NCBI GenBank assembly: GCA_031763025.1
Contig: JASSKH010000005.1
Coordinates: 16,148,128-16,212,127, forward strand
Length of the DNA: 64,000 nucleotides
Direction of reading: 5' to 3'
DNA from: Macrocystis pyrifera
Lineage: Eukaryota; Sar; Phaeophyceae; Laminariales; Laminariaceae
This document shows, in pieces, positions 46 to 52,325 of the stretch (positions are counted from its first letter, which is position 1; each line of letters starts with the position of its first letter). A program made the position numbers and the translations under genes. The notes below the pieces were generated by a model. That model searched no databases. It was not told the origin of the DNA and saw only the letters and a program-made list of their open reading frames with translations.

Positions 46-3000
46 GTGGGGAAGATGCAGTCTATAGCTGCTTGTGCTGTTCTTTAACTTTCGATTTACC
101 TCAGCTAGCGATTGGCCGACCATGTGCCTGGCTTCTTGTTCCGCTCGCCTACCCCGCACCCCTCCCCCCACCCCACGCTATGGCATTTCAGCACGAGGCC
201 GCTATAAAAGACTTGAAACAGGCTGCTCTCGACGCAGAGAGGGAGTTCACAGCCAAGGAGGTCTCCTTCAGGGGCAAGGAGAGCCACCTAGAAGATGCAC
301 TGAAGGCCAGGTGGGGGAGAAAACTGGAAGCAGTCGCTTATGCCTGGTATGTGTTGCCCACGCCTTCTGGGTTCTCGCTGCTTGGCAGGAAGTGCTGGGT
401 CGTGGTTGAGGCCGTGCGCACGCTGTAGCATTTATTTCTCCCGACTGATCGATTCGGTGAGCGATGCGTCGGGTGAGGGGTAATGTTTTTGTTCTGCTCT
501 GGTGCCCGTACGATCTACGCAGTCTCGATACAAGCGGCTGCACGCTCGTTGCGACTGGCCATGCTCAAACCAACATGCGGGAGCAGTTCGATGAGAGGGC
601 GTAGCAGCAGAGCAGCAGGCATGCCCTCGGCGCCCTTAACGCTGCTCTCAGGACTGGCTCATATTCCCAAGCGGATCGCGACGGACATGCACTGGTCCTG
701 TACCCACCACCTTCCCTGTGATTGCCGTAAGGGAGGCGTACGATGTAAAGGCGTTGACACTGCCGAGCTTTGATCGGCAATACCGTTGTCCACGTCCTCG
801 CGGTAGAGGCGAAAAGGTAGATGAAACCATGCGAGTGCTGTCACCTACCTCACCACACTGCGGAGGGTTCGCTCGCCTGCTCACTCGCTGTCCTGACGCT
901 CTGTGTCGGTGATCGCTCGATGGGGACGGCGCAGAGAAAGAGAGCTGGACGCGATACGAACCGGCCTGCGAGCAGCCACCGACCACGCCGAGAAACGGCA
1001 GCGAGAAGCTAAGCGACTAGGATTTTTGTTGGAGGAGACGAGGGAAGAGCACGCAAGGTGCGTTCGGTATTAACAGTATGCACCAAGAATCTGTCAATGT
1101 CGGGGGGGTGGAAGAACCTCTCGGTCTCTCGACTCACACCATTGCCATTCACACCGATGTTGATGGCACATGCTGAAAAAGAGTTTTTCCACGATTGATG
1201 GGAAGCCACGCGCGCGCACGTCCAAAGGGGCACATAGATTTGACCCATTGAGCTTCCCCCCCCCCCCATTTTAACGTACGCGGCTTTTGCCGTGCTCGCA
1301 TAAAGCGACAAAGAGGTGGTTTTTCGGGCTGGTTATGCGCTTTTTCCATGATTTTGCGACCACCTGTGCGAGCCAAATACGGGCACCGACCGAGCCCAGA
1401 CCTCCGAGAGCCCGGTGTTACCACAGCGTGACCCCGCGTTCCGATGGAGCTACCCCCGCGGTTGATTGGGCATGGGAGTGAGGTCGGCAACCCTCTTTGC
1501 CTCACATGTCGGCGAAAAGGTGTCAGTACGGGGTGGATGCAGCGCGAAAGGAAATGCACCTGCATGTCGTTTCGTGGGGGATCTGTCGTAGACGCTACCA
1601 GTATGTACGATATTTGATCACTGCTCGTTGCGCGGACGAGAAAGGAAACGCCTCCCCACGGTGTCCCCGGGTGGTTGTGGTCGTTACCGATGGGTAACTG
1701 TCGTACAATCGTCTTTCACGCGCGAGGGCTCTCGCCTGGACATGATCTGGACGCTGCTACCGTATTTGTAGGCGTGTCTGACTCCCGGGAGGAACGAGAG
1801 CAGGTGACCTGTGCACTTGTACGTACAGCTGGCGCAAATAATAGCAAGCTCGTTCAGGCAGAGAGCAAACAGCGTATGGAAAATTTTAACCGCGCCTCAC
1901 ATGTTGTTCGATATGTTTGTTTTCGATTCTTCCGATATCAGGACATCTTTGAAGCCCTGTACGTTTAACTTGTTGTGAACTGAAGTGAGGCAATCGTCAG
2001 AGATGGACGAGTCATTAATTACTTAGAAGAGAGCATTTTTATGTCCCGTTGCTCTCTACCGATGATCTCACACTAGGCCAGGTAAAAATGGCGTACAGGG
2101 CCGTGAGAGAATGTCTTAACTCAGAAGAATCGAAAAAAAAAACACGAATTAAGAAGCGTCACAGGCGCCAGTAAGCTATAGTGAAACAGAAAAGTGAAGA
2201 ATTAAACTCGTAATTGTTTTGTTTTAGGAGACCACACTTTTTACTAAATGCTTGTAGCGTTCGGGATTCGACAATTCGGGAGGACACAGGGGGGTTGGTT
2301 AATACTGTAATTCATTATGTTCGGCATGCGCAGACACAATATCGACGCTGTAGCGCTTCCCTTTTTTCCTGGCTGCCGTGCCGCCCCGCACCGCAGGAAG
2401 GTCGAGGAGGAAACCCTAATGAGAAAAGCAGAAGCGGAGGAGGCGAAGGCGCACGCGGTGGTGCTGGAGAGAAGGTCGAGGTAAGAAGCCCCACTAGGAT
2501 ACCGTGTACGGAAACTCACTGGTGATCAGATAGGACACCCCCTAGGACGGATTTCCAAGATCTTAACGAGATTTTTCCAAAGTCACCATTTTCGCCATGT
2601 GTGTACTCCTTGTTTCGGAGAAAATTAGCTCGGAAATTCACTTAGAAGGTGCGTTATCTTGTGCGTCATACGGTACACCAGGTACCGGTTTATCGCGGTA
2701 GGGAGTAATTCTTTGCCCTACGTCAGACCACGTGCATGGGGCTTTCGACACATACACCCCCACCCTCGGCCGATCTGCTCTGGTGTGTAGGGGCTAAGAA
2801 TCCCGCCGCTTCGTTTTATACCCTGCTGCTTCTTTCGCTCGCTACGATTGCACGGCTCGCTTCACGACAAGGGGGCTGTCAACTTTAGTTCGTTTCCACC
2901 TCCTGGTCGCCTTTTTTGTGGGGGGGGGGGGGGGGCCGGGGGTCTCCGCCCAATGTTCCCAGACCATTCCACTGCCTATGTAAAGGTGTTTCCAGGCAGT

Positions 3001-6000
3001 TCTTGGTGATGGTGTTGGTGTTGGTTTGTCGTTCTAGATGCGGTCTTTGTACTACCGGGGTTGCTAACTGCTGAAAGGAGATCGGTAATCAGGGATCCTG
3101 GGTCGTGCTAAGCGCGTTTACGAAGGGACAAGGCGTTTCGCCAAGCTGGTGCCACAATGTGAAATGTTTCGATTTTCTTGTCCCTTTCGTTTTGTGTGTG
3201 AATGGGCCCTGATAGGGATGCGGAAAGACGAGCGGGCGAGGTGGAAGCATCTTACACCAAGCAGCTCCGGGGGGTTCAGGAGCGAGCGTCTTCGCAGAGC
3301 TTGGGCGTGGAGAGGCGTTTGCGAGAGGAGGGGGAGCTCGCGCAGAGGCTGTCTTCGAGAAATACCGACTTGCAGGTGCCCATTTCGTCACCTGTACTGG
3401 TGGGAGAACAACTTCGTTTGACAGTGGAAATGGATGGTACCCGACTAGAACAGTACATGGGGCTCCTTCAAGCAACATGTCTGAGCTCGAACTGGACATC
3501 CGGTCCACAAGGCGCTTTTGCCGGCTTCAAGGCTGTGGCGATACAACCGTGTAGGTGTCTGACGCAAAGCATCTGCCTGGTAGTGTCTCGGTCCCGACTC
3601 CCGCCGTGTGTTTGTATCGAGCGATGTGGCTTGAAATTTCTGGACGCGGCAAGGGAAACACGTCAGACCATTCAACGCTGTGAAAGTTTCGCACAGGATT
3701 CAATTCCCCCCCCCCCCCCCCCCCCCCTATTTTATATAGGTTGGGTTGGCGTCGGTTGGGAACGACACTGCAAAACATGCCGCTCACTACCACCAGGGTA
3801 CCGTTTTTTTTTTTTATTTTTTTGGCGGTCGGTCACAGCTGGTTGTCGAGTTGGATCCTTTGTGCGAGGTGAACAACCTTTACTCCGCACAAGCGGGAAT
3901 GATCGTATCGCGTAGTGTTTATGGTAAGGTATCCGAGAGGCAGTTACATAGTACTCCCATCGCTGTCTCTGGAAGTGGCTACACCGGAAATCAAAATGAA
4001 TCATAGAAGCTGTCATCCATATGTAAGAAAATCCGCCTCACAAGCGGTTCATAGTAGGATACAGCTCACCCTTCACGCGACTCGCCGGACATCTCACGGC
4101 GCATCGCGCTTGGTGCAAGCAATGTCTGTCTGGTCGGTGAAAACCCGACATGCTCCGCCCCGGCATTGTAGGGATGCGAGGGTCTATGGTAACACGACTA
4201 CGGCCATGCATGATAATGAATACACCCCCCCCCCCCCCCCTGTCCACAGCAGAAATTAAATCAATTAATTGGCGCTGTCATCCATATGAAAGAAAATCCG
4301 CCTCAAAAGCAGTTCTTCGTAGGATACAGCTCGCCCTTCATGCGACTCGCCCAACACCTCACGGCGCTTTGCGCGTGGTGCAAGCAACGCCTCTCTGGTG
4401 GGTAAAAACCCGACGTGCTCCGTCCCAGCATTGTGGGGATGCGAGGGTCTGTGGTCATGCGACTACGGCCATGCATGACGATGAGTTCACCCCCCCCCCC
4501 ACCCGCCCCTCCCCTCCTCATCCTGCGGCGCTAGTGGTGTTTTTTAAACATTGGCGATGTCATCACTTGACGGCCAAAAAATGAAATTATTCAAGCGCAA
4601 ACACAACACCGAAGCGATACTAGTTTTTTACCCAACTTCACTCTAGCCCTCCGATGCTCGCTGCTCCTGATGGTGGGTGCCTTCAGGGACGTCTGGCCCA
4701 AGTCGTAGCGGAGCGAGGCGAAACTGCGACGGCTGCGAAACGCATGCAGGAAGAGAATGCCAGACTTGAGAAGCAGCTGGTGGACGCCCGGCGCAAGGCG
4801 AGTACCTCGTGGCAAGCGCTTGACTCTCCTTATCAACAAGCGTCCTTGACCTTCGGCCACGGTTAGCTGCATGCAGCGTTGGCAATTGTTTCGTTCGTAT
4901 ATGGTCGAACGACGAGGCTAGCCCTCCCCTTCGGTATAGCAATAGCAGGCAGGAGGAGGAAGTAGATGCGCAGATGTCCCTGTGGCAAAGTAATAGAGAA
5001 TTGAAGTCACATTGTGGGAGAATGTGCACAAGGAGGAACGGAATGTTTTAGAGAAGATAAGGAAAATAGACGAATATGACATGGAGGAGTTAGGTACAGT
5101 AAATAGTAGCGAGAAAATGATCGTTATTCTAGGAGATAGATGGAGGCCAGAGGCGGCGAAACAGGATGGGGATGAGATTACGTAGCAAAACGTTTCTATG
5201 TGGTATATGGAAACAACGTATTGAGCGCCGAACCTTCGGAGGTGTCTCTATTAGGAGTAGGAACGGTGCTCCGTCTCGAAAGGGACGCGTGGTCAGTGAT
5301 CAAATGACTAAGGCAAGCAACAAATGAGTACCCCCCCCCCCCCCGACGTCTGTCTAGCTGGGAGTTCATCCTGGCAATTTCGGTACTTGGTGCAATGGTT
5401 ACACGACTGCTCACGTTTGAGTGGTGCGCTTCCTGTCGTAGGGCTGAAGTGAAGTTTGGACGTGCCATGTTGACCCCAATCCCAACGCCTAATTGCCACG
5501 CCCATAACGAACGTTACGTTTAGTGTGGACCCACAGCAGTATTTAGTACAATTGTAATTTGTCTGGGATTAACGATCGTTTCGCCTGCCCCTCCTCCCCT
5601 CTCCCCCCTGGTGTCCACTCTAATGCCCAATCGATACGTGGGCGACACGTCGATACATCGGTGCGCGTTGGGTTTACGCATCAGCTTTCTGAGCTGACAA
5701 CTCAGCTGTCGGAGACAATTGGGTTGGCCGAGGCAAGGGCGAAGGATGAGGGCCGCCTCAGATCGGAGCTCAAGCGCTTGCAGATTACCGCTGCCAGGTG
5801 GGTGGTGATGGTTTTTGCTTCTTTTGTTACTCATGCTGTTGATGTCATCGCTCCGGCAAGTTTCTTACAATATCTACACTGGTGGGAAACTCTACTGATT
5901 GAGTTCCGAAGCAGGCAGCAGTAGTAGTGTCTTAACGGCGCGTCCTTGAAGCGAGGATCTGGTGTGGCGCGAGCCAGCCAAGGCAAGACGGGGTGACGGC

Positions 6001-18000: not shown

Positions 18001-18452
18001 CCTAAGATCGTAACGTGTACCTGAGAACTTATTAGACATCCCCCCCCCCCCCCCGCCCCCGGCCGGCCGCATGCACGTGTTCCATTTGGAACAAAAAAAG
18101 ATACATACTGAAACCAAGTAAAAAACAAAAAAAACCCACGTCACATGCGGTGTTTTTGGCCTGGAGAAATCACATACATTTTTTGTTTTGCGCATACATA
18201 GACCAGACAGCAGTGAACATTCTGAATAATGTATGATATGTCAAAATCAAAAATACTTCTTACATGTGAATGCTTTGATTGATTTGGTAGTCACACTCAC
18301 TCTATGCGTAGTGTCCATTCCGGTTGCATACGTACAGAAGAGCAGTAATATCGGGTTTAATGTATGGTAACTGCTCGCTGCCCATACCATTTCAGCATGC
18401 AACACCAATATTTAAAGGGGAAGACCTCGTGCGCCATAACATGAGTTATGTA

Positions 18453-18518
<66 letters not shown>

Positions 18519-27500: not shown

Positions 27501-28577
27501 TTGATGTGTTCATAGGCTGTCATACACGGGCTTCAATCGACGCTGGGCGCTGTAAGAGTAGCAGTTTTTTTGCCTCACGAGGCACTAGTGATGGGGTTTC
27601 TGAACTGAGGCACTACCAAATATGGTTCGTGGTTGACAGTGTGTATCGCCCTGGCGTATACTAAGTGCACGCTTTTTTTTCATGTTCGGGTTTTGGGTGT
27701 CGTGTACACCGCCGCTGCTTTCGCATGCATCGTTCGTGTTTTGTGCTTTGCGGGGTACAGCGCCACGGGGATCGTGGGCGATTTCTAGCACCCCCTCTAT
27801 ACGCATATATAGGTTGGGATGGCGTCGTTTGGCGACGACACTGTAAAACGCGCCTCTCACTGCATGCGCTACAGTAAGACAACCAGGGTAAAGAGTATCG
27901 CTTTTCTGTTTTTTTTTTTTTTACGGTCGAGTCAGATCTTTTTTATGCGAGGAGAACCTTCCCTCCGCACAAGGGGGATGATCGTATCACGTACTGTGTA
28001 TGTCGTATGGCACCCACCCACGAGGCAGTTACGTGGTGAACCCGTTGCTGTCTCAGGAAGTGGCCACACTAGAAAGTAAATTAGTTCATTGACGCTGTCA
28101 TCCATATGCAAGAAAAATCCGCCTCAAAAGCGATTATTAGTAGGACGCAGCTCACCCTTCATGCGACTCGCCCAACACCTCACGGCGCTTCGCGCTTGGT
28201 GCAAGCAATGTCTGCCTGGTCGGTGAAAACCCGACGTCCTCCGTCCCGTTATTGTAGGGATGCGAGGGTCTATGGTCATACGACTACGGCCATGCATGAT
28301 GATGAGTACACCCCCTAACCCCGTGACCCCCCCCCCCCCCCCCCCCCCCATAATGAGTATCCCCCCCCCCCCCCCCCCCCCGCCACCGCTGTGCAAGCAA
28401 TGTCTGTCTGGTCGGTAAAAACCCGACGTGCTCCGTCCCGGCATTGTAGGGATGCGAGGGTATATGGTCATACGAGTACGGCTATGCGTGATATCGAGTA
28501 CTCCCTTCTTCTAGAAAGAGATGCGTGGACAATGGTCAAATGACTACGGCAACCAACAAATGAGTACCACACAGCCC

Positions 28578-28623
<46 letters not shown>

Positions 28624-34600: not shown

Positions 34601-34847
34601 CACCGAGTGCATGCTCGTAGGGACTTTTTCTTGCATAAAATTGATTAGCGGAAAGCGCGAGAGCGTGAGTTAGCTGTACATTCGATGAAAGTCGACGAGC
34701 AGTGGGAATGCTGAACCCTATGCGCGATAAAAACTAAAGGCGCGTACCGAGGGGGAGAGGGGGACGACACCTGAGACCACGGCCTGTCCAGAAGATCGTC
34801 GAGGGTAAAACCTCCTACGAGTGGGCTGGAAAGTAAAAGTGATGATG

Positions 34848-34879
<32 letters not shown>

Positions 34880-37800
34880 AAGGGACATTGTAACCAGCGG
34901 TAGCTGGGTGTGTTTTGCCTTCTCTTTTTTGCGCCTGATTTACGGGTATATTGGCGCGGTGGTGCTGGTGAATATTAGTGATGCGAGACGGTTGCCGTCT
35001 GGTCGGTGGGCTGGCCGGTCGCGGTACAGCGTTGGATGCCTCATGACGGGGGCGTTCCCTCCCCCGAGAGTGTATGTATGCCCTGCGCTCCGCGCGCTCG
35101 TCTCGTCTGGTCCAGTTGTGTTAAAGTGGGGTTTATCTCCTCCCCGGTCCCCCCCTCCCCTGTTGGAGACTCGCCAGCATTTGTCGCCCTTTTTATCTTT
35201 CGGCCTCCCCTCCCCCGAGCGTTGTTGTCGGTGTCAACTAGCCCCCCCACCCTCTCCCCTCCAACGCGTAGCCTCTTCTTCCCTCCCTCCCTCCCTCCCT
35301 TGTTGTCGCGTGCCTTTTAATAGGGTGGTGCCGCAGTCGGTCGGAGAGTTGCCCACCTTGCCCGGAGGACTGGACGGCGACAGCTCCACCCCGTCCGACG
35401 CGTCCCCGATTACGACAATCCCGAGCCCATCTACAGGGGGGGGCACCACCACCACCACCACCATCTCCCAGCCGGAAGCCCTCTCCGGTGCCCCTGCCGC
35501 TGCGGCTGCTGTGCCGGAGAGGGGAGAGGCCCCTATGGATGGCACGGCAGGTTCCCTGACGGCGGTTGCGCCAGTAGAAGCAAATGGAAGCGCAGAAGCG
35601 GCTACGAGAACGTTGGCGATGCCGTCGGGAACAGCTGTAGCGAGCGTACCGGAGGTGTTGGGGGCGGCAGCGGCGGTGGCGCCGTGGGCGGGGGGGCGTG
35701 AGGACGCGCGGGTGCCGCCCCCGGGATTCAAGGAGGGAGAAGAGGAGGAGGAAGAGGAGGTGGTAGGGGGTAGAGAGGGTGTGGATTCGATAGGTCGGAA
35801 CGGTGAGGCCAGGCTAGCGCTGACGGTGGCCGAGGCGTCGGAGTCGGAGGGGGTGACAGGCGTCCCCGATGGAGGGGCCGAGGTGGAGGCGGCAGTGGTG
35901 GCGGCGGTGGCGGACACCGAGGGTACGACCGAGGTTAAGACCCTCGAGGGTAAGGCTGTCGAGGATAGGACCGTGGAAGATAAGAGCTCCTCGGTGATGG
36001 ACGTGTTGAAGCTTACGAAGAGCATCGCGATGTTCACGAAGTCTTCGGGGCCGAGCAAAGCCCCCGCCCGCTCGGTGGCGGCACCAGTGACTGCCGTGGT
36101 GGCCGAAGCCGCAAACGATTCCCAAGCGGCGGTGGCGGCGACGACGACGCGGAAGGTTCCGGAGTCGGGCAAGGAGAAGGAGAAGGAGAAGGCTGTGGAG
36201 AAGCCCTCGTCATCGTCGTCGTCCATGCTAGACTTGTCGACGAGGTTTAAGATGAGCATGGGCATGTTCGGAAGCGCTAGATCGTCGTCCGCGGCTGGGC
36301 AGGGAAGACATTTGAGCTCTAGCTCGAGCGTAAGCGCTGCCACGGCCGCCGCCGCCGCCGCCGCCGCCCGCCGCCGCCACTGGCGCCTCTCCTTCACCCA
36401 CCCCTGCCGTCGCCGCCGCTGCCATGAGTAATCATGTCGTACAATCACCGTCGCCATCGACTGCAATGCCTTCTCCGGCGGGGGCGGGCAAGTTTTCGAG
36501 CTACGCTAGACGCGCTGGCAATTTCTTAGGTGAGAAGTGGAGGTTTTATTTTCGGTGGTAGTGGTGGTGTTGGTGCTTGTGCTGTTATTGTTGTCGTGGT
36601 TGTTGTGGCTTTTGTGGTTTTGGTATTGCTGCTTCTCTTGATGTAGCCGGCCGGCTAGGTGCTCGCAGCCCCCAGCCGTCTCGCTTCTGCAATCCGTCGA
36701 ATCGTGCACTAGATCCACCCCGCCGACCTGTGCCCGCGTGGGGGCATTGCTATGATTTTCACTGATCCCTGACCCTCCCTCCCTCCGTCCCTCCCGTCCC
36801 TCCATCCTCCATCCTCCCAACACTGGCCAGGCTCCGATTCCCGTCACCTCGGACGTTCCCCTAACCCAGACTCCACCCTCTCCATTTCCGCCGACACCCT
36901 CGCCAACGGGCCGCCGCCGCCCTCACCGCTAGTCCCGATCTACCTCGACTCGCCCCCCACGGCGGTGGGAGGCGCCGCCGCCAGAACACCGAGCGCCTCT
37001 TCGGCGGCTGCCGCTATAAACGCCCTCACCGCCCCCACTCCCCGACAAAAGTCGGACGCCTCCTCCGCGGGGGCCGGAGAGAGGGGGCTCGCTCGAGGTC
37101 AGGAACTTCGGGATCATCGACGGCGGCTACCGCCGCCGCCCCCGGCGGCGGCTCCGCCTCCGCAGTAGTAGACGCAACATCCTCGACAAGAAGGTCGCTA
37201 AGCTCGGCGACGTCTGACTCGGGCGGGTCCGATAGCTACCGCTCTGCATCTCCGACGGGTGGCGGCGCCGACGGCGAAGCGGGGGGTGGAACGGGGCTCG
37301 GGGAGGAGGGTGCAGGTGCGGGTGACGAGCACGAGGGAGGGGGGTGGCGGCGGCGGGGAAAGGGGGGCAGCAGGCAGAAGCACCTGTATCTGGTTCCCAG
37401 CGGCCTGTGTCTGCTCTCCACACAGCCCAAAACGGGCGCCATGCGGAGGTCGCTGGCCGCCTACTGGGCGGCCCACGGCGAGGAGATAGCTTGCGGTGGT
37501 GTCGCCATGGCCCGCGGCGGTGGCGATGCCGGGGGGGGGGGGGGGGGGGGGATGAAGGTCGGCGGATCCCGGCACAAGAAGAAAACGCCTGCGACGGTGC
37601 CGCCTGCGGCAGCGATGGCGGACCCGTCGACCCACACCCGAATAAGTCGAAAGGAGGGTCGGGCGCGGTGGGTGTTGGGGCGTGGACTGGCCTTACCGCT
37701 GACGGTCTCCGGGAGGCCCTGGGACCCTTTGTGATGCAAGGTCGGCAAGAGTTTAGGCGGGAGGGGTCGGCTAAGGTGGCGGCAGCAGGGGGGGGGGGGA

Positions 37801-39277
37801 CTGGGGGAGGAGCGACGATGGCTGACGAGCCGTGGGCGGTTGCGCCGGAAGACGTGCCCAGGTCGCTATCGGCGGGTAGTCCCCCACGCGACTGCTCGCC
37901 TAATTCTTCTTCAGCAGCAGCCGCAGCAGCAGCTCGAGGAGTGCTATCGGCTGCGACGATGGGGGAGGCGAGCGGGGTGGTAGGGTGCGATGTGGGACTC
38001 GGGTCGGCGATCGACTTTGACCCGTCGATGGTGTTCCGGTGCCTTAGCCCGCGGCACCTCTGTCTTGTGGTAACCACCCTGCTGTGCGAGAGGAAGGTCG
38101 TCATGGTTTCGTCCCGCCTTTCCCTGCTCACCATGGCCGGGGAGGTGTTCCGGTATGTGGGAGGGGGGGGCTCTTTGCAGGAGCTAGTTCTTGGAAGGCG
38201 CCTGTTTTTGGGCTGGTGGGAAGGGGGGGGGGGGGACAGCGGAGGGGGGGGCGCGGGGGGGGATGTCGGTAAGGGAGACTTTATCCACTACAAAAAAAAA
38301 TACTACTTATTTTTAGCAATATTTCGAAGTAGACGCGTTCTACGATAGAGATTCACCCTATATTTTCTGAGTCTCCTCACCTGAGGAGCTCCATAAAACA
38401 CCCGAAACCTGACTTCAGCAAAAATCAAATTGCATCGCGATGAATAATCCCACAGCCAAAGTAAACAAAATCTTCGTTTTTCGAAACGATGTTGACATTC
38501 CGACGATTTTGGATTAAGGAACCCCGTCATTCAGAAAACAGTTTAGAGGATATGTGCTACGTCTACCGCGTCAGTAGTTTGCCCCCCAAAACGTGGGTTG
38601 CGGTTCTAAAGGGGTTTTACGAGATATCGAGGCGTGCTGGCGTTGTTTTTTTTCATGATGGACCTGCTGATTGTGTGTTGAGGGCTACCTGGTATGCTGT
38701 AGCTAGCTGGATGTGCGTTTGGTTCGGTTGATACAATTAAAACAAAACAAAACCACTATTTCCCTACTGTAGCACTTATATTTACAGCTGTAAATATAAG
38801 TACTGCTTGCACAAGGCTTATTTATCCGAACGAAAAAAACGATACATTTACGCAGCTTTTTTTGTTTTTCGAGTCCCTAAAGGGGGGGGGGGGGGTATAC
38901 TGACATCAAGTTGAAAAAAAAACAAAAACAAAAACAAAAAAAAAAAATGTTCGAAAATTATTATTCTGACAAAAATCTCAACCCGTTAAGTACGAGGTAG
39001 TTTGTTTTCAATGCCGAGACGGTGGCCGGTATGTCTCCGCTTTCTCTTTTCTTCGCGAACCCCTGGTCTGCGTATTGATACTTGATCCGAGCGGTCCTTG
39101 TATGCACGGTCAGAGTGATACACAGTAGTATAGCACGCCCCCGTTCGTTGAATCACTCGGGGAGTTTTCTTCGGGGTCTCTTCGCGTGTTCCACCGTTTT
39201 CCCGCCTTGTTGATGGAGCCAAAGAGACGGGTTTCCTTGTGACGCTTCGTGCGCGTGGTTGTGATAAGCGACAACGG

Positions 39278-39308
<31 letters not shown>

Positions 39309-41838
39309 TGTGCGTACTCTCGTTCAAATGTCTGTGCTTGCTGATCATGCTCTCCTCTGGTCAGGAGATTGGTGTGTGTAGGGTTGGCAAGTTGTTGGAA
39401 GGCGGCCGTGGTATGTATGATGAATGACTGGGCCTTTACGGCCGGGATATAAGCGCAACGAAAACGTGTTGACTCGTACTCACGGTCAGCCGCCGCTGCC
39501 CCAGGTAGAGCGCCGAATCTGAAACCGAACCCGTGTACCAGAAAGGAGGAAACTGAAACCGAATCGAGAATGAAAACGAAACCTGAAACGGGAATTGAAA
39601 ATGAATCCCGTGTATCAAAACTGAAACTGAAACTGTACCTGAAGTTGAAAAACGAACTATAGGAGCTGAAACTGAAGCCGAAACTACCACCGAAAGAACC
39701 CGAAATCGAAACTGACACTGTAGCTGATACTGAAACCGAAATGAATCGAAAAATGAACCCGAAATGGAAGCCGAAACTGAAACTGAACCCGAATATGAAC
39801 CCGAATCGGTTGAATCCGAATCTGAAAATTGCCGCTACCGCCGACGCTGACGCTTTTCCTCTGGCGTCGTCTGTGCTTCTGTCGCTGTTCTCTCCTTCTC
39901 GCCGCCGCCAAAGGTCGTTGCTGCAACCTCTGACCTGGAGCCACGTGTACGTGCCCCTGCTTCCTCGGCGGATGGCTGCAGACCTTATGCAGTGCCCCAC
40001 CCCTTTCCTCCTCGGATTGGACACCGCCACGGCCAGCGGGTTGGAGCTGCCGAAAGATGCTGTTCAGGTGAGGTGCTGTCCTGGCACAGGCGGAGAGCTA
40101 TCGAGCTATGATAGCTCTTTCGCTAGAGGGGTATAAATACATGGACTGGGAAGGCCAAAGACCCTCGTTTTTGTAGACTTTTTTTTTCTTCTTTTTTTCG
40201 CGGGCACGTGCCATGCTATCGGAGCTCTGCGAATTACGAATAGCCCCCGCGCCTCTCTCTCTCCCCCCTCCCCCGCAGCTACACCGGGAATTAAATTCAC
40301 CCATTGAAGCTGTCACCCATAGGCAAGTCCGCCTCACAAGCGGTTCTCAGTAGGAGGCAGCTCACCCTTCATGCGACTGGCCGGACACCCCACGGGGCTG
40401 CGCGCTTGGTGCAAGCAATGTTTGCATGGTGGGTGAAAACCCGACGTGCTCTGTCCCGGCATTGTAGGGACGCGAGGGTCTACGGTAACACGACTGCGGC
40501 CATGCATGAGATCGAGCACGTCTCTCCTATCGAGTACACCCCACCCCCTCTCGCTTTCGGCCTTTCCCCTGTGCCCCTACCCTCCCCGTTCACTCCACTT
40601 GCCGTCTCCCCTTTCGTCCCCTTGCCCCTATCCCCACCCCTCGCACGAAATACCCTTCGCGTTGGCCCGGCACCTGAAAAAAGGTCCACCTGGACACGGA
40701 CTACGTTTTGATGCCGAAAGATTTTGTAGGCCTGGCGCCCATGTCCGTCCTCTGCGCGCGGCTGTGCTCCGCGCTCAACCCGGGCATCGATTACCTCGAT
40801 TGTCCTCTTGGGGGCGGAGGAGGAGGGGGGGGAGGGCTGGACTCCTGGAACGGCGGACAGCATCCGCCTGCTCTTCCGAGAGTTCGTGTCGGAGTTGCTG
40901 CAGGTGCGTTGGCGTGTTCGTGCTTGCTTGGCTGGTGGAAGATGGAGTAGGGGGGGGGGGGGGGGGGGGTGCTCCTTTGTTGCTTGCCTTGGTCATTTGA
41001 CCATTGACGGGGAGAAGATGGCTCTCGTGCTGTTTTGTGTACTTGTGTGTATGTGTCAACAATTGACAGGTGCGTGCGTGCGCCTTAGCTCGGACGTTGT
41101 ATTGGAGGGGTGGGAGGCGGTGGTGGGGCGGTGTGGCGGACTGGGCTTAGTTGTTCCGGGTTTCCAGGCCGCGGCCGTTTGTAGGCTCTTTCGACAGCAA
41201 CAGTGCCCGACACGAGAGAAGCTGGGTGTATCATGCTCGTGCGTGAGTGGCGTCGGTAACCGGACGACACTAAAAGGCATCGGAGCCTCGCTTAGCGTGT
41301 GGCATCTATAGCCCTACCGACGGGATTCCGCGTAATGTCTCACCGTACCCCGCTCGCGCGCGTGTGCCCTCTTACCCCTTTGTACTTCTGGACTGTACGT
41401 GGAACCTAGGTTATACTCTAGTTCCAAGTAATTCGTCCTCCGAACGGGAGTGCAGTCCTGACAAGAGGTGGAACCCCTTGTTTATATTTTCTGGATAAAT
41501 AAAAAAAAAAACTGTCCCGCTTGCTGCTGCCGATGTTTGTAATTATTTCAGGGAGCCGCCGAGAGCACGTTCGAGGTCGGACAGGGGCCCACGGCGACGG
41601 TGCTGCTGGACGAACGGCTGTACAAGCGGGCCAAGTCGGCTGCGGCGAAAGCGGCGGACCGCTACTACGGCGGGAGGCGTTCGGCGACGGGGGGGGGGGG
41701 GTGGCCGCAGGGTGGCGCAGGGTCCGGGGCGACGCAGGAGGGGGTCCGCTGTACAACAGGCACTGTGTCCCATTGCTGGACCAGTTCATGAAGACGCAAA
41801 TGCTATCTCACTTTTTGTCCGAAGGGACCTGGGAGTGA
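1..41838 (+). CDS. Giant multi-exon gene: coiled coil - PDZ - RGS - DENN protein (5' end outside window)
   Basis: This entry is the span of one gene assembled by eye from about 24 exons; single exons are listed separately. Exons were chosen by GT (once GC) donors, AG acceptors and matching phase: every junction from 192 to 5797 and nearly all from 15392 to 41838 agree in phase. Predicted product about 2,500 residues. Known roles of the families: PDZ binds C-terminal peptides, RGS speeds GTP hydrolysis on G-alpha subunits, DENN modules act as Rab guanine-nucleotide exchange factors. Joining them suggests a scaffold linking G-protein signals to membrane traffic; that is inference. Large Ala/Gly/Ser inserts separate or interrupt domains. 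The frame breaks in several exons, usually at G runs, so this copy may contain assembly errors or be decaying. One linking exon between 5797 and 15392 is missing from my model. Confidence 0.68.
192..310 (+). CDS. Exon: coiled-coil segment 1
   Basis: Acceptor TTTCAG precedes 192 and the donor AG|GTGGGG follows 310. The frame starts [19 protein letters not shown] and continues with charged and Ala/Leu heptad-like spacing, typical of a coiled coil. It ends after two bases of a codon (AG), and the next exon supplies the third base. Confidence 0.6.
935..1057 (+). CDS. Exon: coiled-coil segment 2
   Basis: Acceptor GCAG at 931-934, donor AAG|GTGCGT. The first base completes the split AGA codon from the previous exon, then reads [20 protein letters not shown] and on to [10 protein letters not shown]: strongly charged, helix-forming, no stops. 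It ends again in phase 2, so the exon chain is consistent. Confidence 0.6.
2397..2480 (+). CDS. Exon: coiled-coil segment 3
   Basis: Acceptor CCGCAG and a good donor GAG|GTAAGA. With the one-base carry-over it reads [20 protein letters not shown] then VVLERRS: Glu/Lys/Ala-rich helix. Phase 2 at the end, as for the two exons before it. Confidence 0.6.
3216..3375 (+). CDS. Exon: coiled-coil segment 4
   Basis: Acceptor CTGATAG at 3209-3215, donor CAG|GTGCCC. It reads [17 protein letters not shown] and then [18 protein letters not shown], a continuation of the coiled coil. One base completes the incoming codon; the exon ends in phase 0 after NTDLQ. Confidence 0.6.
3728..4219 (+). mobile_element. 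C-tailed short retroposon, long form
   Basis: About 480 bp starting TATTTTATATAGGTTGGG and ending ATGCATGATAATGAATACAC followed by C14. It aligns over its whole length with 27795-28317 (+) and 55290-55812 (-). It has no ORF. It is bounded by C tracts on both sides (C run 3706-3727 on the left). Class is not certain: I see no tRNA-type A/B boxes. Lies in an intron of the large gene. Confidence 0.6.
4250..4500 (+). mobile_element. C-tailed short retroposon, short form
   Basis: Directly follows the long copy. It contains only the right-hand 230 bp of the family, starting near AATTAATTGGCGCTGTCATC and ending GATGAGTTCAC then C10. Core words CACGGCGCTT, GCAAGCAA, AAACCCGACGTGCTCCGTCC and GGGATGCGAGGGTCT are shared with the other copies. 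Confidence 0.6.
4687..4797 (+). CDS. Exon: coiled-coil segment 5, with GC splice donor
   Basis: Acceptor CCTTCAG at 4680-4686. It reads [20 protein letters not shown] and then [17 protein letters not shown], still coiled coil. The best exit is AAG|GCGAGT at 4798, a GC donor with otherwise ideal consensus: it leaves phase 0, as the next exon at 5685 needs. The nearest GT (4802) would leave phase 1 and break the chain. Confidence 0.55.
4932..5344 (+). mobile_element. 3' fragment of the C-tailed LINE
   Basis: Matches the last 400 bp of the LINE at 58990-61198: the region of the CysHis finger (GCGCAGATGTCCCTGTGGC), the TTAGGAGTAGGAACGGTGCT block and the 3' end CAAATGACTAAGGCAAGC...GAGTAC, followed by C14 (5331-5344). 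Stops interrupt the frame, so it is a dead 5'-truncated copy. Confidence 0.65.
5685..5797 (+). CDS. Exon: coiled-coil segment 6
   Basis: Acceptor GCATCAG, donor CCAG|GTGGGT. It reads [20 protein letters not shown] then [17 protein letters not shown], heptad-like. It ends in phase 2, while the next exon I recognise (15392) starts in phase 0, so at least one exon in the following 9.6 kb is not identified. Confidence 0.55.
6037..6115. repeat. Foldback MITE family 1
   Basis: About 80 bp with imperfect terminal inverted repeats: left GCAGTCTCGTTTTTGGGAC, right GTCCCCAAACGGGACTGTAG. Middle ACTCAAATTAAAAGTAG. Same family at 32451-32535 and 46025-46102, with partial copies near 23070, 41420, 51245 and 51650. 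No coding capacity. Confidence 0.55.
7166..7342. repeat. GGGTCG/CGACCC palindromic repeat element
   Basis: Starts TTCACGGGTC and ends GACCCGTGAA, exact inverted ends, with GGGTCGGGTCGGGTCGGG in the left arm and ACCCGACCCGACCCCACCCG in the right arm. A related copy, mostly in reverse orientation, sits at 56081-56220 and a small piece at 33325-33356. No ORF of note. Confidence 0.5.
7343..7989 (+). other. Intron sequence without recognised features
   Basis: Between the palindromic element and the LINE I see no exon, RNA gene or repeat I can name, apart from a G9 run near 7849 and the dispersed word ACCAGGTACC near 7798. Confidence 0.4.
7990..10011 (+). CDS. LINE (non-LTR retrotransposon) reverse transcriptase
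   Basis: A 673-codon open frame with no internal stop. Reverse-transcriptase blocks appear in order: [27 protein letters not shown], the catalytic block [16 protein letters not shown] (Asp near residue 261), [18 protein letters not shown], and the YADD catalytic motif at residues 382-385 inside [14 protein letters not shown], then [14 protein letters not shown]. The C-terminal part has no clear Cys/His finger. No apurinic-type endonuclease precedes it, so the element is 5' truncated; residues before about 55 look like flanking DNA read through. Host context: intron of the large gene, same strand. The clade (Jockey/CR1/I-like) cannot be fixed by eye. Confidence 0.88.
8140..10204 (+). mobile_element. 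5'-truncated LINE
   Basis: Extent judged from where the RT-like protein starts (about 8140) to the junction with the LTR element at 10205. The 190 bp after the stop codon are AT-richer (ATTTTAAAAAATCAG) and probably 3' UTR. The true 3' end may have been displaced by the LTR element. No target-site duplication found. Confidence 0.6.
10205..10463 (-). repeat. LTR (3' LTR of the minus-strand element)
   Basis: Identical over 259 bp to 13305-13563. In minus orientation it starts TGTTATGGTTTTAGACCG and follows the polypurine tract. Confidence 0.7.
10464..10471 (-). promoter_or_regulatory. Polypurine tract of the LTR element
   Basis: Minus strand reads AGGGGGGA directly before the TG of the 3' LTR, the place where plus-strand DNA synthesis is primed in LTR retrotransposons. 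It fixes the element's orientation. Confidence 0.55.
12251..12733. repeat. Three 161-bp tandem repeats inside the LTR element
   Basis: Units begin at 12251, 12412 and 12573 with GAAACAAACGGAYGAACGAC and contain GCCCCGTGGCTAAGGCACAG and CAGCATGGGAGGCAGCAACA. Units 2 and 3 are almost identical and unit 1 differs at several positions. The minus strand reads the same 50-residue patch in each, but no longer ORF. Confidence 0.85.
13305..13563 (-). repeat. LTR (5' LTR of the minus-strand element)
   Basis: Identical to 10205-10463. Flanks differ (CTGTC before it on the minus strand, versus CGTCT or TCGAC after the other copy, depending on the exact end), so no clean 4-6 bp duplication is seen. Confidence 0.7.
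13564..15391 (+). other. Intron sequence, one dispersed repeat, no clear exon
   Basis: Contains a purine-rich patch (13600-13750), T-rich sequence (14040-14120) and a repeat at 14221-14346 that has a diverged partner at 47373-47508 (shared CTGGATGTCGACG and AATGTGAAGAACACACAC). A phase-compatible but unconvincing exon candidate lies at 14464-14548. Confidence 0.4.
15392..15536 (+). CDS. Exon: first half of PDZ domain
   Basis: Acceptor TGTGCAG, donor AGAG|GTGAGA. It reads [18 protein letters not shown], then [20 protein letters not shown]. The YDV-V-KKG-APLGLKL pattern is the first strand and the carboxylate-binding loop (here PLGL) of a PDZ domain. It ends in phase 1, completed by the exon at 21535. 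Confidence 0.7.
15537..16531 (+). other. Intron without recognised features
   Basis: I see no exon, RNA gene or named repeat between the PDZ half-exon and the tRNA-derived element. Confidence 0.4.
16532..16850 (+). mobile_element. tRNA-derived SINE, copy 1 (poly-A tailed)
   Basis: Aligns with the two copies at 34182 and 34540: B-box-like TGGGTTGGAGTCTCACCGAG, then TTTCTTGCATT, GCGGAAAG, ATGCGCGATAAAAATGAAG, GACGACA and a final AAAGTGATG followed by A10. The A-box half is degenerate. Confidence 0.65.
17087..17201. repeat. Foldback MITE family 2, diverged copy
   Basis: Terminal inverted repeats GGGACCATA...TAAATGGGACC and GGTGCTATTTACTATGGTCC, with the shared interior TAGGTCTTTGTGTGTACCGT. 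Other copies: 32221-32330, 53441-53548, 54826-54941. Confidence 0.5.
17202..18454 (+). other. Intron without recognised features
   Basis: AT-rich stretches, a C16-type run near 18040 and scattered GTACGTAC words; no exon or repeat family that I can identify. Confidence 0.35.
18455..18516 (+). repeat. 62-base oligo(C) tract
   Basis: Uninterrupted C run, the longest in the window. It is preceded by CATGAGTTATGTATG rather than the usual GAGTAC end of the C-tailed families. A G-quadruplex or i-motif is likely; exact length in an assembly is unreliable. Confidence 0.8.
18545..18823. repeat. Terminal-inverted-repeat element, about 280 bp
   Basis: Left end TTTTACAATCTGTGAGCTCG and right end reverse complement TTTTGCAATCTGTGAGCTCG, one mismatch over about 20 bp. 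The interior (GCCATAAACGCGGCTGCGCC...AAGTGCAGACCGCGCTACGC) recurs in reverse orientation at 47040-47192, roughly nine tenths identical. No transposase. Contains AACCCTAACCCTG, which is not a telomere array. Confidence 0.55.
18830..21534 (+). other. Intron without recognised features
   Basis: CTG/CAG microsatellites (19558-19585, 19958-19978), a CGCCC run (20490-20512), ATC repeats (21152-21170) and T-rich sequence. No exon that joins in phase; no RNA gene seen. Confidence 0.4.
21535..21692 (+). CDS. Exon: second half of PDZ domain
   Basis: Acceptor GAGCAG, donor CAGG|GTGAGC. With the carried G it reads [20 protein letters not shown] and then [17 protein letters not shown] and [11 protein letters not shown]. 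The V-GD-L-S-DGKDV block and the A-AIEAAR helix are classical PDZ. Phase 0 at the end, matching the exon at 23635. Confidence 0.75.
21745..21969 (-). mobile_element. C-tailed short retroposon (minus)
   Basis: On the minus strand it runs from CCGCCTCACAAGCGG through the core words to CTCCTATCGAGTACAC and an interrupted C tract (G tract 21738-21760 on plus). 5' truncated; abuts the LINE fragment at 21970. Confidence 0.6.
21970..22626 (-). mobile_element. C-tailed LINE, 3' part with CysHis finger (minus)
   Basis: The minus strand carries a 168-codon open frame (22592-22086) equal to the LINE C terminus: [20 protein letters not shown], a finger CPCG...HTAGEC and [14 protein letters not shown]. 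After the stop comes the 3' end CAAATGACTAAGGCAAGCAA...GAGTACG and C7. This copy keeps the finger intact, unlike the copy at 60.8 kb, which reads VPVWQSN there. Confidence 0.7.
22627..22852 (-). mobile_element. Two 3' fragments of the C-tailed short retroposon (minus)
   Basis: Two head-to-tail pieces: 22636-22760 (after a G18 tract, TACTCGATATCATGCATGG) and 22763-22852 (after GCCGGGGGGG, TGTTCGTGTTATGCATGGCC). Both contain the ACCCTCGCATCCC word. Each begins at its own G tract, that is, each has its own C tail. Confidence 0.55.
23495..23592 (+). mobile_element. C-tailed short retroposon, 3' fragment
   Basis: Starts at AAACCCGACGTGCGCCGTCC and ends CATGACATGAGTGCAC followed by C12. The C tail sits 43 bases upstream of the next exon's acceptor, so it may lie close to or within that intron's branch region. 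Confidence 0.55.
23635..23745 (+). CDS. Exon: PDZ-RGS linker
   Basis: Acceptor GCGACAG, donor CTG|GTGAGC, phase 0 to phase 0. It reads [20 protein letters not shown] then [18 protein letters not shown] do not recognise a family; it leads directly into the RGS exon and may form its first helix. Confidence 0.6.
24542..24778 (+). CDS. Exon: RGS domain, first part
   Basis: Acceptor CTCTGCAG, donor CAG|GTGCGC, 79 codons, phase 0 to 0. It reads [18 protein letters not shown], then [15 protein letters not shown] and [18 protein letters not shown]. This follows the RGS pattern: a FLxyL helix, the FWLEVxxF motif, then the IYxxYxxxGS segment. In the family these helices contact the G-alpha switch regions. 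Confidence 0.72.
25242..25863 (+). CDS. Exon: RGS domain, low-complexity insert and second part
   Basis: Acceptor CCGCAG, donor CCG|GTGAGG. It starts [18 protein letters not shown], then about 150 residues of Ala/Thr/Glu/Pro-rich insert, then [13 protein letters not shown] and [19 protein letters not shown], which match the FdxaQxxVxxxL...YxRF end of an RGS domain. The start is in frame 3 (25242) but the end is in frame 2 (25742). The switch falls at G14 (25720-25733), so either the run length is wrong in this sequence or the allele is frameshifted. Confidence 0.65.
26325..26433 (+). CDS. Exon: end of RGS domain
   Basis: Acceptor GGGCAG, donor GAC|GTGAGC. One base completes the split codon, then [20 protein letters not shown] and [28 protein letters not shown] corresponds to the RFLxSxxYxxL tail of RGS domains. 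Phase 0 at the end. Confidence 0.65.
27220..27396 (+). CDS. Exon: linker after RGS
   Basis: Acceptor GTGGCAG, donor CGG|GTGAGG, 59 codons, phase 0 to 0. It reads [20 protein letters not shown] then [18 protein letters not shown] and a Gly/Ser tail. No family recognised. The alternative frame ([17 protein letters not shown]...) ends at a stop inside the exon and does not fit the phase. Confidence 0.5.
27795..28317 (+). mobile_element. C-tailed short retroposon, long form
   Basis: Full-length relative of 3728-4219: ATATATAGGTTGGGATGGCG at the left, T14 in the middle, AGCTCACCCTTCATGCGACT, and the end GCATGATGATGAGTACAC plus C5. The left flank ends CACCCCCTCTATACGC, so here the 5' C tract is short. 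Confidence 0.6.
28385..28500 (+). mobile_element. C-tailed short retroposon, 5'-truncated
   Basis: Starts TGTGCAAGCAATGTCTGTCT after a C23 tract and ends ATATCGAGTACTCCC; its own tail is short or lost. Confidence 0.5.
28505..28622 (+). mobile_element. C-tailed LINE, extreme 3' end with C45 tract
   Basis: Only the last 70 bp of the LINE (AGAAAGAGATGCGTGGACAA, GTCAAATGACTACGGCAACC, AATGAGTACC), then ACACAGCCCA and a C tract of about 45 bases to 28622. Confidence 0.55.
28716..29137 (+). CDS. Probable exon of the linker, frame broken twice
   Basis: Coding-like peptides appear in sequence: [20 protein letters not shown] (frame 2, before 28857), [20 protein letters not shown] then [14 protein letters not shown] (frame 1, 28870-28980), and [20 protein letters not shown] then RQVLRK (frame 2, to 29137), ending at donor AAG|GTATGC. 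The frame switches fall at T9 (28858-28866) and G19 (29004-29022). The acceptor is not certain. No domain recognised. Confidence 0.4.
29586..29657 (+). CDS. Possible short exon of the linker
   Basis: Acceptor TCTCAACAG, weak donor AAG|GTCCTG, 24 codons in phase 0: [20 protein letters not shown] then QSVK. It fits the phase of both neighbours but has no recognisable domain. Confidence 0.35.
29911..30772 (+). CDS. Probable long low-complexity exon, frame broken
   Basis: It starts at 29911 or 29942 (acceptors CAAAAG or ACTTCCAG) with [20 protein letters not shown] and ends [14 protein letters not shown] at donor TTCAT|GTGAGC in phase 2, as the next exon requires. The middle is Gly/Ser/Pro-rich. 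Coding character moves from frame 2 (to about 30380) through frame 1 (30343-30600) to frame 3 (30600-30772), so at least two switches lie inside; the second is not in a long homopolymer. Confidence 0.4.
30773..31253 (+). other. Intron without recognised features
   Basis: AT-rich, with a possible right half of the foldback family 1 near 30880 (CCCCAAACGGGATTGTATC). Nothing else seen. Confidence 0.35.
31254..31486 (+). CDS. Exon upstream of DENN module
   Basis: Acceptor TTTCAG. The first base completes the incoming codon, then [20 protein letters not shown] and [20 protein letters not shown], a Gly run, and [20 protein letters not shown]. This frame is open throughout. It leaves at CAGC|GTGCAA in phase 1, which the exon at 31663 accepts. 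The donor is not strong. Confidence 0.45.
31663..32048 (+). CDS. Exon leading into the uDENN lobe
   Basis: Acceptor TTTTTTTAG after a pyrimidine tract, donor AAG|GTGAGG, ends in phase 0. It reads [37 protein letters not shown], a Gly/Ser/Glu-rich middle and [16 protein letters not shown]. It is open across several G runs. Confidence 0.55.
32221..32330. repeat. Foldback MITE family 2
   Basis: Left end GTTTTACGGGGGGATATAGT, right end reverse complement GTTTACGGAGGCCTATAGGA; interior CTAAATATGCTTAGTGAAAA and TAGGTTTTTGTGTGT shared with 54826-54941 and 53441-53548. Confidence 0.6.
32451..32535. repeat. Foldback MITE family 1
   Basis: Left AGAACCGCAGTCTCATTTTG, right CGAACGGGACTGCGGTTTTA; inverted ends of about 25 bp with few mismatches, interior TCTAATTTCAAGTGTC. 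Confidence 0.6.
33135..33310 (+). mobile_element. C-tailed short retroposon, 5'-truncated
   Basis: Starts GCGACTCGCCCAACACCTCA and ends GCATGACTTGAGTAAC plus C9. It has small internal duplications (GTCGGTGGTCGGTG, CGACTACTACGG). Confidence 0.6.
33398..33786 (+). CDS. Exon: uDENN lobe
   Basis: Acceptor CGTCCCAG, donor CAG|GTGTGC, phase 0 to 2. It reads [28 protein letters not shown], a Gly/Arg insert, then [23 protein letters not shown] and the F-F...G...FYGACL motif are the marks of the upstream DENN lobe (family: fcFPd ... fvLTdedGxxlYGxcL). The Gly insert splits the two motifs by about 60 residues. Confidence 0.7.
33787..34181 (+). other. Intron, T/G-rich, no feature
   Basis: T/G-rich sequence with a G15-type run near 34077-34092. 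No exon in phase. Confidence 0.35.
34182..34482 (+). mobile_element. tRNA-derived SINE, copy 2
   Basis: tRNA-like head: A-box TGGCTTGGTAGG (34188) and B-box GGTTCAAGTCTC (34232), about 45 bases apart. The body CTTTTTCTTGCATAAAA...GCGGAAAGCG...ATGCTGAACCCTATGCGCGA runs to GGAAAGTAAAAGTGA without a poly(A) tail. Nearly identical to the copy that starts 360 bp downstream. Confidence 0.75.
34540..34880 (+). mobile_element. tRNA-derived SINE, copy 3 with A tail
   Basis: Head CCCCGGTGGCTTGGTGGG (A-box) and GAGTTCGAGTCTCACC (B-box at 34590-34602), the same body as copy 2, and a 3' tail GTGATG plus about 30 A's. The word before it (CCTGCCCAAAGGGAAACATA) does not repeat after the tail, so no target-site duplication is evident. 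Confidence 0.8.
35324..36529 (+). CDS. Exon: long low-complexity insert between uDENN and cDENN
   Basis: Acceptor TTAATAG (phase matches 33786), donor TTAG|GTGAGA. It begins [18 protein letters not shown] and runs 360 codons of Ala/Val/Thr/Glu-rich sequence, including [20 protein letters not shown] and [20 protein letters not shown], two similar amphipathic segments. The frame changes from 3 to 1 within a GCC repeat around 36345-36378 (one extra C), after which [18 protein letters not shown] and [15 protein letters not shown] lead to the donor. A stop at 36429 ends the uncorrected frame. Confidence 0.6.
36831..38152 (+). CDS. Exon: Ser/Ala-rich linker and cDENN lobe, first part
   Basis: Acceptor TGGCCAG, donor TTCCG|GTATGT. 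After a Ser/Ala/Pro stretch comes [20 protein letters not shown] then [16 protein letters not shown] (37378-37485), the LYxPxxLCLLSxxP opening of a central DENN lobe. After an insert of about 170 residues follows [20 protein letters not shown] then [20 protein letters not shown], the core LLxERKVVxxSSxxxxLT. Frame switches: 2 to 1 before 37090 and 1 to 3 at G21 (37531-37551). Confidence 0.7.
38153..39279 (+). other. Intron with AT-rich sequence
   Basis: AT-rich, A-tract-rich DNA (38930-38950) and a partial foldback family 1 end near 38580-38615. No exon. Confidence 0.35.
39280..39311. repeat. (TATG)n microsatellite
   Basis: Seven to eight TATG units. Confidence 0.9.
39515..39830. repeat. Degenerate GAAACT/GAAACC hexamer satellite
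   Basis: About 300 bp of imperfect six-base units (GAAACTGAAACCGAA and variants), ending 80 bp before the cDENN exon. On the minus strand it reads as Phe/Ser/Gly-rich repeats, which I take as a by-product of the periodicity. Confidence 0.75.
39914..40067 (+). CDS. Exon: cDENN lobe, second part
   Basis: Acceptor CCAAAG (phase 1-base start fits 38152), donor CAG|GTGAGG. It reads [20 protein letters not shown] then [16 protein letters not shown]. PLTWxHVYxPxLP...APTPFLxG is the most conserved stretch of DENN modules. Phase 0 at the end. Confidence 0.85.
40283..40550 (+). mobile_element. C-tailed short retroposon
   Basis: Starts GGGAATTAAATTCACCCATT and ends CTCCTATCGAGTACACCCCACCCCC. Near complete short form inside the intron between the cDENN exons. 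Confidence 0.6.
40684..40903 (+). CDS. Exon: cDENN/dDENN junction
   Basis: Acceptor AAAAAAG, donor CAG|GTGCGT. It reads [19 protein letters not shown] (the VDLDtdxv strand of DENN), [19 protein letters not shown], a Gly run, then [17 protein letters not shown], the start of the dDENN lobe. The first part is in frame 1 and the last in frame 2; the switch lies in the G/GGA tract 40810-40837. Confidence 0.65.
40950..41015 (-). mobile_element. C-tailed LINE, extreme 3' end (minus)
   Basis: The plus strand shows G19, TGCTCCTTTGTTGCTTGCC, TTGGTCATTTGACCATTGA: the reverse complement of the LINE terminus with its C tail (GAGCAC variant). Confidence 0.6.
41415..41470. repeat. Foldback MITE family 1, right half
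   Basis: GTTCCAAGTAATTCGTCCTC and CGAACGGGAGTGCAGTCCTG match the right arm of the family; the left arm is missing. Confidence 0.4.
41552..41838 (+). CDS. Exon: dDENN lobe and probable C terminus
   Basis: Acceptor TATTTCAG, phase 0. It reads [40 protein letters not shown], then after G13 (41689-41701), in another frame, [20 protein letters not shown] and [11 protein letters not shown]. PLLDxFxxTQMxxxFL is the end of the downstream DENN lobe. A TGA follows directly (41836-41838). A GA|GTGAGT donor overlaps it, so the protein could continue; the phase to the exon candidate at 43692 does not fit. Confidence 0.62.
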
Positions 41839-51976: not shown

Positions 51977-52238
51977 TCAGTACGCAAGACGATACTTGCC
52001 GACCAAGTACGTTCTGTACTTTGCGTACTGATCGGGGTCTAAGTTTAGCCACGTCGCCACTAGCGCCCTCTCCTCCTTCTCCAGGTGGATCTCCAAACTT
52101 TCCGCGTAAGTCTTCAGCGCGTCGACCGCTTCCGCCGCCAGCTCGCTGGTAACGGCCGCGGGCTCTTCTCGGAGAGGCTTGAGCAATGCTAAAGCGCTTT
52201 TTTCAAGCTGCGTCTCGGAGTGTTCTGCCTCCAGATCT
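51977..52238 (-). CDS. Hemerythrin-like protein, last exon
   Basis: Acceptor GTTTTGTAG (minus) at 52247-52239. With the carried AG it reads RDLEAEHSETQLEKSALALL, KPLREEPAAVTSELAAEAVD, then YAESLEIHLEKEERALVATW and LNLDPDQYAKYRTYLVGKYR, stop at 51977-51979. All-helical, with AEHSE and the IHLEKEE motif (HxxxE) typical of hemerythrin HHE proteins, which bind O2 or iron through a His/Glu di-iron site. GC-rich, unlike its surroundings. The family call rests on motif spacing only. Confidence 0.5.
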
Positions 52239-52292
52239 CTACAAAACGAAGCCCGAGCCGGGACCCACGCGAATGGGGTTTGTTCGAGAGAG

Positions 52293-52325
<33 letters not shown>

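Follow-up and report, generated by a model that had tools for sequence, protein, structure and literature searches.

Genes within the window

The window—that is, the whole stretch of 64,000 nucleotides of the giant kelp Macrocystis pyrifera analysed here—contains, on the plus strand, a gene that begins with an ATG at 15437 and ends with a TGA at 41836–41838, the predicted protein of which (about 2,150 residues) gathers a PDZ domain, a divergent RGS domain with an insert, a further RGS-like helical segment and a DENN region. It is preceded on the same strand by the 3' part of a separate gene for a coiled-coil protein (192–6478), the two being separated by the open reading frame of a LINE-type reverse transcriptase (7936–10011, stop to stop, plus strand; PF00078, 119.5 bits). 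Two joined hemerythrin-like exons (52000–53021; PF01814, 32.4 bits), located on the minus strand, belong to yet another gene. In the earlier note, everything from 192 to 41838 had been described as one gene coding for a coiled coil, PDZ, RGS and DENN protein. The end given there coincides exactly with the stop codon, but the start is wrong, the exons at that place being those of the other gene that ends at about 6478; the union of PDZ, RGS and DENN in one gene is borne out by brown-algal gene models, whereas the coiled coil has to be assigned to the upstream gene.

Exons of the coiled-coil gene are found as far as 14.0 kb before the start of the window, and those within the window were chained at 192–310, 935–1057, 2397–2480, 3216–3375, 4687–4797, 5685–5797 and 6325–6478, the last one containing the stop codon. 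A search with an 800-residue query, covering proteins of 0.55 to 1.75 times that length, revealed homologues from Laminaria (94% identity), Undaria (85%), Ectocarpus (77%), Pylaiella (76%) and Scytosiphon (76%), together with one eukprot record (77%) and a more distant one from Tribonema (39%). The C-terminus of the Laminaria protein maps to 6314–6415 by tblastn, with the reading frame coming to a stop at about 6478. Judged from these sequences, the coiled-coil gene is conserved across brown algae and their relatives. The precomputed Pfam family PF28159 is assigned to 14 of the 15 relatives listed. The protein may resemble the centrosomal CEP89.

Exon structure of the PDZ-RGS-DENN gene

Segments of the related proteins described below are matched by tblastn in order along the window, from 15437 to 41835, and the Ectocarpus proteins terminate at the same point as the kelp TGA. 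All the exons lie on the plus strand. The PDZ domain is encoded by exon 15392–15536, the ATG of which (15437) is aligned with Met1 of the Ectocarpus protein P0003, by exon 21535–21692, placed by exon joining, and by exon 23635–23745, which carries the last PDZ strand (NVVMVFER) and the join to the RGS domain, as supported by both exon joining and tblastn. The N-terminal half of the RGS domain is found at 24542–24778, its low-complexity insert and C-terminal helices at 25242–25863, with a frame break near a G14 run at 25720, and its end (FKTSPW), together with the start of the second helical RGS-like segment, at 26325–26433, again placed by joining and tblastn. The helices of the second segment follow at 27220–27396, where the kelp sequence is 83% identical to residues 450–491 of P0003, and the segment continues at 28802–29137, an exon with breaks at T9 and G19 runs and with the 5' boundary not placed. 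Exon 29912–30772, having a frame break near 30.27 kb, covers the end of the second segment (VYPDFQAS), a long linker and a conserved helix with a motif of 16 residues; the next linker exon, 31663–32048, ends in a conserved segment of 11 residues.

The DENN region starts with a uDENN-like segment (FYGACL) at 33398–33786 and is continued, through a long low-complexity linker exon at 35324–36529 with a break in a GCC repeat, by the first part of the cDENN at 36870–38152, delimited by a 12-residue motif and ERKVVMVSS and containing two frame breaks. The cDENN core, with a motif of 13 residues, is located at 39914–40067, and the join of cDENN and dDENN, from VHLDTDY to a motif of 10 residues, at 40684–40903, with a break near a G8 run at 40825. 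The last exon, 41552–41838, encodes the dDENN-like end with a motif of 18 residues, exhibits a break near a G13 run at 41689 and finishes with the stop codon.

Of the 11 motifs quoted, 10 are found in one plus-strand frame, while the remaining one, FYRFKTS, spans a splice junction and appears only when 25863 is joined to 26325. The phases of the exons do chain, as had been claimed, for the four exons between 15392 and 24778, which form one frame when joined; past 25.7 kb, about nine in-exon breaks occur, and the chaining holds there only if these breaks are assembly errors. An exon-chaining script, its codon usage derived from the kelp genome itself (24 of 30 kinase loci plus one RGS locus), recovered many of the PDZ, RGS and DENN exons on the plus strand (score 135), although those at 15392 and 28802 escaped it and a number of ends were misplaced. 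Since it also chained 18 weaker pieces on the minus strand (score 75), several of which overlap these exons from the other strand, the gene model presented here rests on the orthologues. An AT/A join at 31712 was dropped, the acceptor at 31663 being favoured by the orthologues. It should be noted that the kelp protein used in the search and alignment of the PDZ-RGS region contained a short wrong segment at the 31712 join, and that the exon at 28.8–29.1 kb, absent from the kelp search query, was added by hand for the alignment.

Orthologues in brown algae

The search with the PDZ-RGS region, in which 7992 candidates with lengths between 0.55 and 1.75 times 1924 residues were scored, yielded three proteins, all of them from brown algae and all with E-values of 1.6e-160 or better: a partial one from Scytosiphon promiscuus (P0001; 1717 residues) and two from Ectocarpus, i.e. 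Ectocarpus sp. CCAP 1310/34 (2403 residues) and Ectocarpus sp. 4 AP-2014 (2173 residues). These proteins are gene predictions. Both Ectocarpus relatives possess PF02141 (DENN) and align with the kelp model from the PDZ domain through to the last residues, so that the same architecture, with the PDZ, RGS and DENN parts in single gene models, does exist elsewhere in brown algae, namely in two Ectocarpus genomes; the partial Scytosiphon model ends at about the start of the cDENN, after its first segment. When, reciprocally, the DENN end served as the query and 7238 candidates were scored, the two Ectocarpus proteins were retrieved again, along with five further DENN proteins with E-values from 3.5e-6 to 9.7e-4. 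In these five, the PDZ, RGS and RGS-like profiles found no match (best E 0.35), and no RGS domain was seen either by a Pfam scan (three proteins) or among the precomputed domains (two proteins).

The sequence conservation is unevenly distributed along the protein. Between kelp and Ectocarpus, the blocks from the PDZ domain through the helix after the RGS domain are 82% identical (363/443), the whole PDZ region alone reaching 82.5% (94/114), and the four DENN blocks 59–71%, versus 33% (346/1047) in the linkers; the corresponding values between Ectocarpus and Scytosiphon are 86% (394/459) for the PDZ-to-helix blocks and 39% (377/962) for the linkers. Such a contrast between domains and linkers is the pattern expected from selection on a working protein. 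Taken at the level of these sequences, the PDZ-RGS-DENN fusion is real and conserved in brown algae, without the coiled coil. In comparison with the other orthologues, P0002 has about 200 extra residues between the RGS-like segment and a motif of 10 residues, probably a retained intron or a piece of a mobile element in the gene model.

Delimitation and integrity of the gene

Three alternative views of the locus have to be weighed together. That the coiled coil and the PDZ-RGS-DENN part could still constitute one gene, e.g. as a long isoform, would agree with their adjacency on the same strand, with the identical lengths of the contigs carrying the two genes, by which these appear to be neighbours also in Scytosiphon (57932 bp) and in Ectocarpus sp. 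4 AP-2014 (52502 bp), with the 15 open codons before the PDZ ATG inside its exon, and with the fact that a fusion of about 3,000 residues lies outside the size range of the coiled-coil search. This is nevertheless very improbable: among the six coiled-coil proteins read from brown algae, five (P0009 from Laminaria and P0011–P0014, the Ectocarpus protein being P0012) share a C-terminus of their own, which is present in the window and followed by a stop at about 6478—the different end of the sixth, the Undaria model P0010, looks like a read-through into an intron—and in none of the six is there a PDZ domain after the coiled coil. Furthermore, P0001–P0003 begin at, or shortly before, the PDZ domain (P0001 being partial), exon 5685–5797 ends in phase 2, which fits exon 6325 and not the phase-0 PDZ exon, and the LINE stands between the two genes. 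Unlikely, if less so, is the opposite view that the PDZ-RGS and DENN parts are two genes arranged head-to-tail and fused by gene prediction alone. The distance of about 7 kb from the RGS end (26433) to the uDENN-like exon (33398) speaks for it; however, both Ectocarpus models run through this gap, the partial Scytosiphon model spans it, and the gap itself is filled with conserved blocks at 27.2, 28.8–29.1, 29.9, 30.6 and 31.7–32.0 kb, including stretches of 24 and 11 residues.

The kelp copy might also be a pseudogene, given the in-exon frame breaks (approximately nine by visual count, from 25.7 to 41.7 kb), three of which are away from homopolymer runs of at least 8, in shorter G runs or the GCC repeat, and given that the length-limited PDZ-RGS search retrieved no protein from Laminaria or Undaria, in both of which the coiled-coil neighbour was found. 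On the other hand, six of these breaks fall at homopolymer runs of at least 8 (four other such in-exon runs are unbroken), and breaks of this kind fit errors of a PacBio long-read assembly; the genome of M. pyrifera CI_03, according to PMC10498591, was assembled from PacBio reads by Canu and Racon to 537 Mb in 223 contigs. The kelp-Ectocarpus identities of 82% and 59–71% in the domains against 33% in the linkers, to be compared with 77% for the unbroken coiled-coil neighbour, and the splice consensus present wherever an exon end was located (i.e. except the 5' end of exon 28802) likewise speak against a pseudogene. A pseudogene is about as improbable as the head-to-tail pair, and from its sequence the kelp gene looks functional.

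PDZ and DENN regions

The PDZ signature read in the DNA by the earlier note is sustained by the similarity to solved PDZ domains and not by the Pfam profile. A profile made of four PDZ sequences, when compared with the PDB, matched NHERF2 with an E-value of 4e-5, and the best 60 of the 105 sequences at E ≤ 10 were mostly PDZ proteins. By contrast, the Pfam PDZ model gave 15.7–19.8 bits in hand-cut kelp pieces, under the cut-off of 23.2, the best of these scores being obtained with one loop left out by hand, and it stayed below the cut-off in the whole relatives, too. The identity of the domain as a PDZ is supported by the comparison with the PDB.

The full three-lobe DENN module claimed originally is reduced to its central lobe. 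The cDENN (PF02141, cut-off 23.4) scores 69.3 and 91.7 bits in hand-cut kelp pieces—the latter value for the joined, trimmed region—and 94.5 and 91.7 bits in the uncut Ectocarpus proteins, and its nearest solved structure is DENND1B (E = 2.5e-11). The uDENN, on the other hand, was not detected by Pfam in the segments of any of the three species or in the three whole proteins, leaving just the motif likeness of FYGACL, and the dDENN is sub-threshold, with 15.1–15.9 bits in the kelp pieces (cut-off 26.8) and with 15.1 and 14.6 bits (E 0.024 and 0.035) for the dDENN segments. A complete three-lobe DENN exchange factor was set aside on account of the undetected uDENN.

RGS domain and the segment following it

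The RGS signature lies at the threshold in the kelp protein and below it in the relatives. With the low-complexity insert left out by hand, the kelp domain reaches 24.2 bits, just over the Pfam cut-off of 23.9, other hand-cut kelp pieces giving 16.2–21.7 bits, whereas Ectocarpus (23.3 bits) and Scytosiphon (17.7 bits), treated in the same way, remain under it; RGS is, however, the sole Pfam family matched by all three members. Among the uncut proteins, P0003 scores 13.4 bits and P0001 14.1 bits, the best stretch being in the second segment, and in P0002 the Pfam RGS match is absent. No RGS structure was found in the PDB with the RGS segment used either as a profile or as a single sequence. The AlphaFold models of Ectocarpus residues 1–705 alone and of residues 112–686 with three sequences had mean pLDDT values of 36.4 and 31.8, respectively, a confidence too low in both cases to confirm an RGS fold. 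As far as these profile scores reach, the RGS domain is divergent and its resemblance near-threshold.

As for the helical segment after it, RGS was again the sole Pfam family seen, with 15.0 and 13.4 bits in the segments from two of four species and with no match in those from the other two, the cut-off being exceeded nowhere. In the comparison with RGS4, 56 and 17 of 200 shuffles reached the score, so that the likeness does not exceed that of shuffled sequences. Profile-profile comparison of the first RGS segment with the second gave an E-value of 0.23, and comparisons of the first and the second with the one Pfam-detected RGS exon of kelp gave 0.026 and 0.39, respectively, each with a probability under 2%. 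By its sequence, this segment is RGS-like and nothing more.

The statement that the protein would switch off Gα is not supported in that form, in view of the divergence of the domain and of the replacement of key residues. Pairwise alignments with RGS4 are weak (z 3.2 and 2.9, with 1 and 2 of 200 shuffles reaching the score), but in both of them kelp and Ectocarpus alike have A at the position of E87 and R at that of N88; the position of I114 is F or V, and that of N128, where the two alignments differ and the assignment depends on the alignment, is Q for kelp and H for Ectocarpus. As reported in PMC3434218, replacement of E87, N88, I114 or N128 of RGS4 by a non-functional residue lowers the GAP activity by more than 90%, while the N128Q variant retains significant activity, so that the kelp glutamine does not argue against a GAP function. 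It is mainly the replacement of E87 and N88 that makes canonical GAP activity towards Gα doubtful, and a canonical RGS GAP was set aside because of the missing GAP residues. The same genome contains 21 exon matches to Gα on six contigs, 11 of them over the cut-off, and two of the contigs (C204 and C210) carry five matches apiece that follow the order of the profile, which suggests several Gα genes in giant kelp and makes a link of the RGS-like domain to Gα possible. The remaining four contigs are C131, C189, C197 and C202; the match on C197 and one of those on C131 contain a stop codon. An RGS search of the kelp genome itself hit a single locus, situated on a different contig, but did not recover the PDZ-RGS-DENN gene, its RGS domain being split over exons.

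Two readings of the RGS part may be set against each other here. According to the one that is slightly favoured, it would be a non-GAP RGS-homology domain, comparable to those of axin and sorting nexins, which would bind a membrane or a protein partner and would not switch off Gα directly. The A and R at the E87 and N88 positions, the loss of such residues having cost RGS4 more than 90% of its GAP activity (PMC3434218), argue in its favour; the weakness of the RGS4 alignment, the kelp Q at the N128 position that is compatible with GAP activity according to the same source (H in Ectocarpus), and the Gα genes of the genome weigh against it. According to the other one, clearly less likely, the PDZ domain would dock to a receptor, the tandem RGS folds would read active Gα, and this binding would gate the DENN module, so that a G protein-coupled receptor would directly set Rab activation.

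Comparison with known systems

The earlier note's remark that no family fusing RGS with DENN had been described agrees with our literature searches on RGS with DENN, none being seen among the matches listed. Searches on DENN with brown algae and Ectocarpus found nothing. In the available part of PMC3521125, RGS and PDZ have no occurrences, and an RGS-DENN fusion was not met in the accessible portions of PMC6033456, PMC5784254 and PMC6397043 either.

The likeness to the DENN exchange factors for Rabs, of which DENND1B has the nearest solved structure, concerns the cDENN core; the kelp protein differs from them in having no detectable uDENN and a weak dDENN, in its very long low-complexity linkers, and in the PDZ and RGS domains placed in front. 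A PDZ and an RGS domain are present on one chain also in the animal RGS12 and RGS3, which are not known to have a DENN module; in comparison with these, the kelp RGS domain has diverged and contains a long insert. An interrupted RGS domain is known from the G protein-coupled receptor kinases as well, which arose via a kinase inserted in a loop of the RGS domain and of which Ectocarpus has one GRK-like protein (PMC3307776), but the insert is a kinase there, whereas in the kelp protein it is of low complexity and a DENN region follows downstream. The RGS fold of axin also binds APC and has the N128 position substituted, as stated in PMC3434218, its partner and architecture being unrelated to those of the kelp protein.

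Proposed function

Based on the above results, the locus is best explained by one brown-algal gene that carries PDZ, a divergent RGS with an insert, an RGS-like segment and DENN, and that most likely codes for an exchange factor of the DENN type, a reading to which we assign a probability of roughly two in three. The DENN region would promote the release of GDP from a Rab, whereas the PDZ and RGS-fold domains may serve as docking and input modules, the docking placing the exchange factor at a membrane receptor or a G-protein complex. The conserved tie, on a single polypeptide, of a fold of G-protein signalling to a DENN module occurs here in a lineage that is multicellular independently of animals and plants. 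Should the domains influence one another, a direct coupling of receptor signalling to vesicle traffic would result, for example to the secretion of the cell wall. The gene is, in addition, a clear candidate for divergent RGS folds acting as effectors rather than as GAPs.
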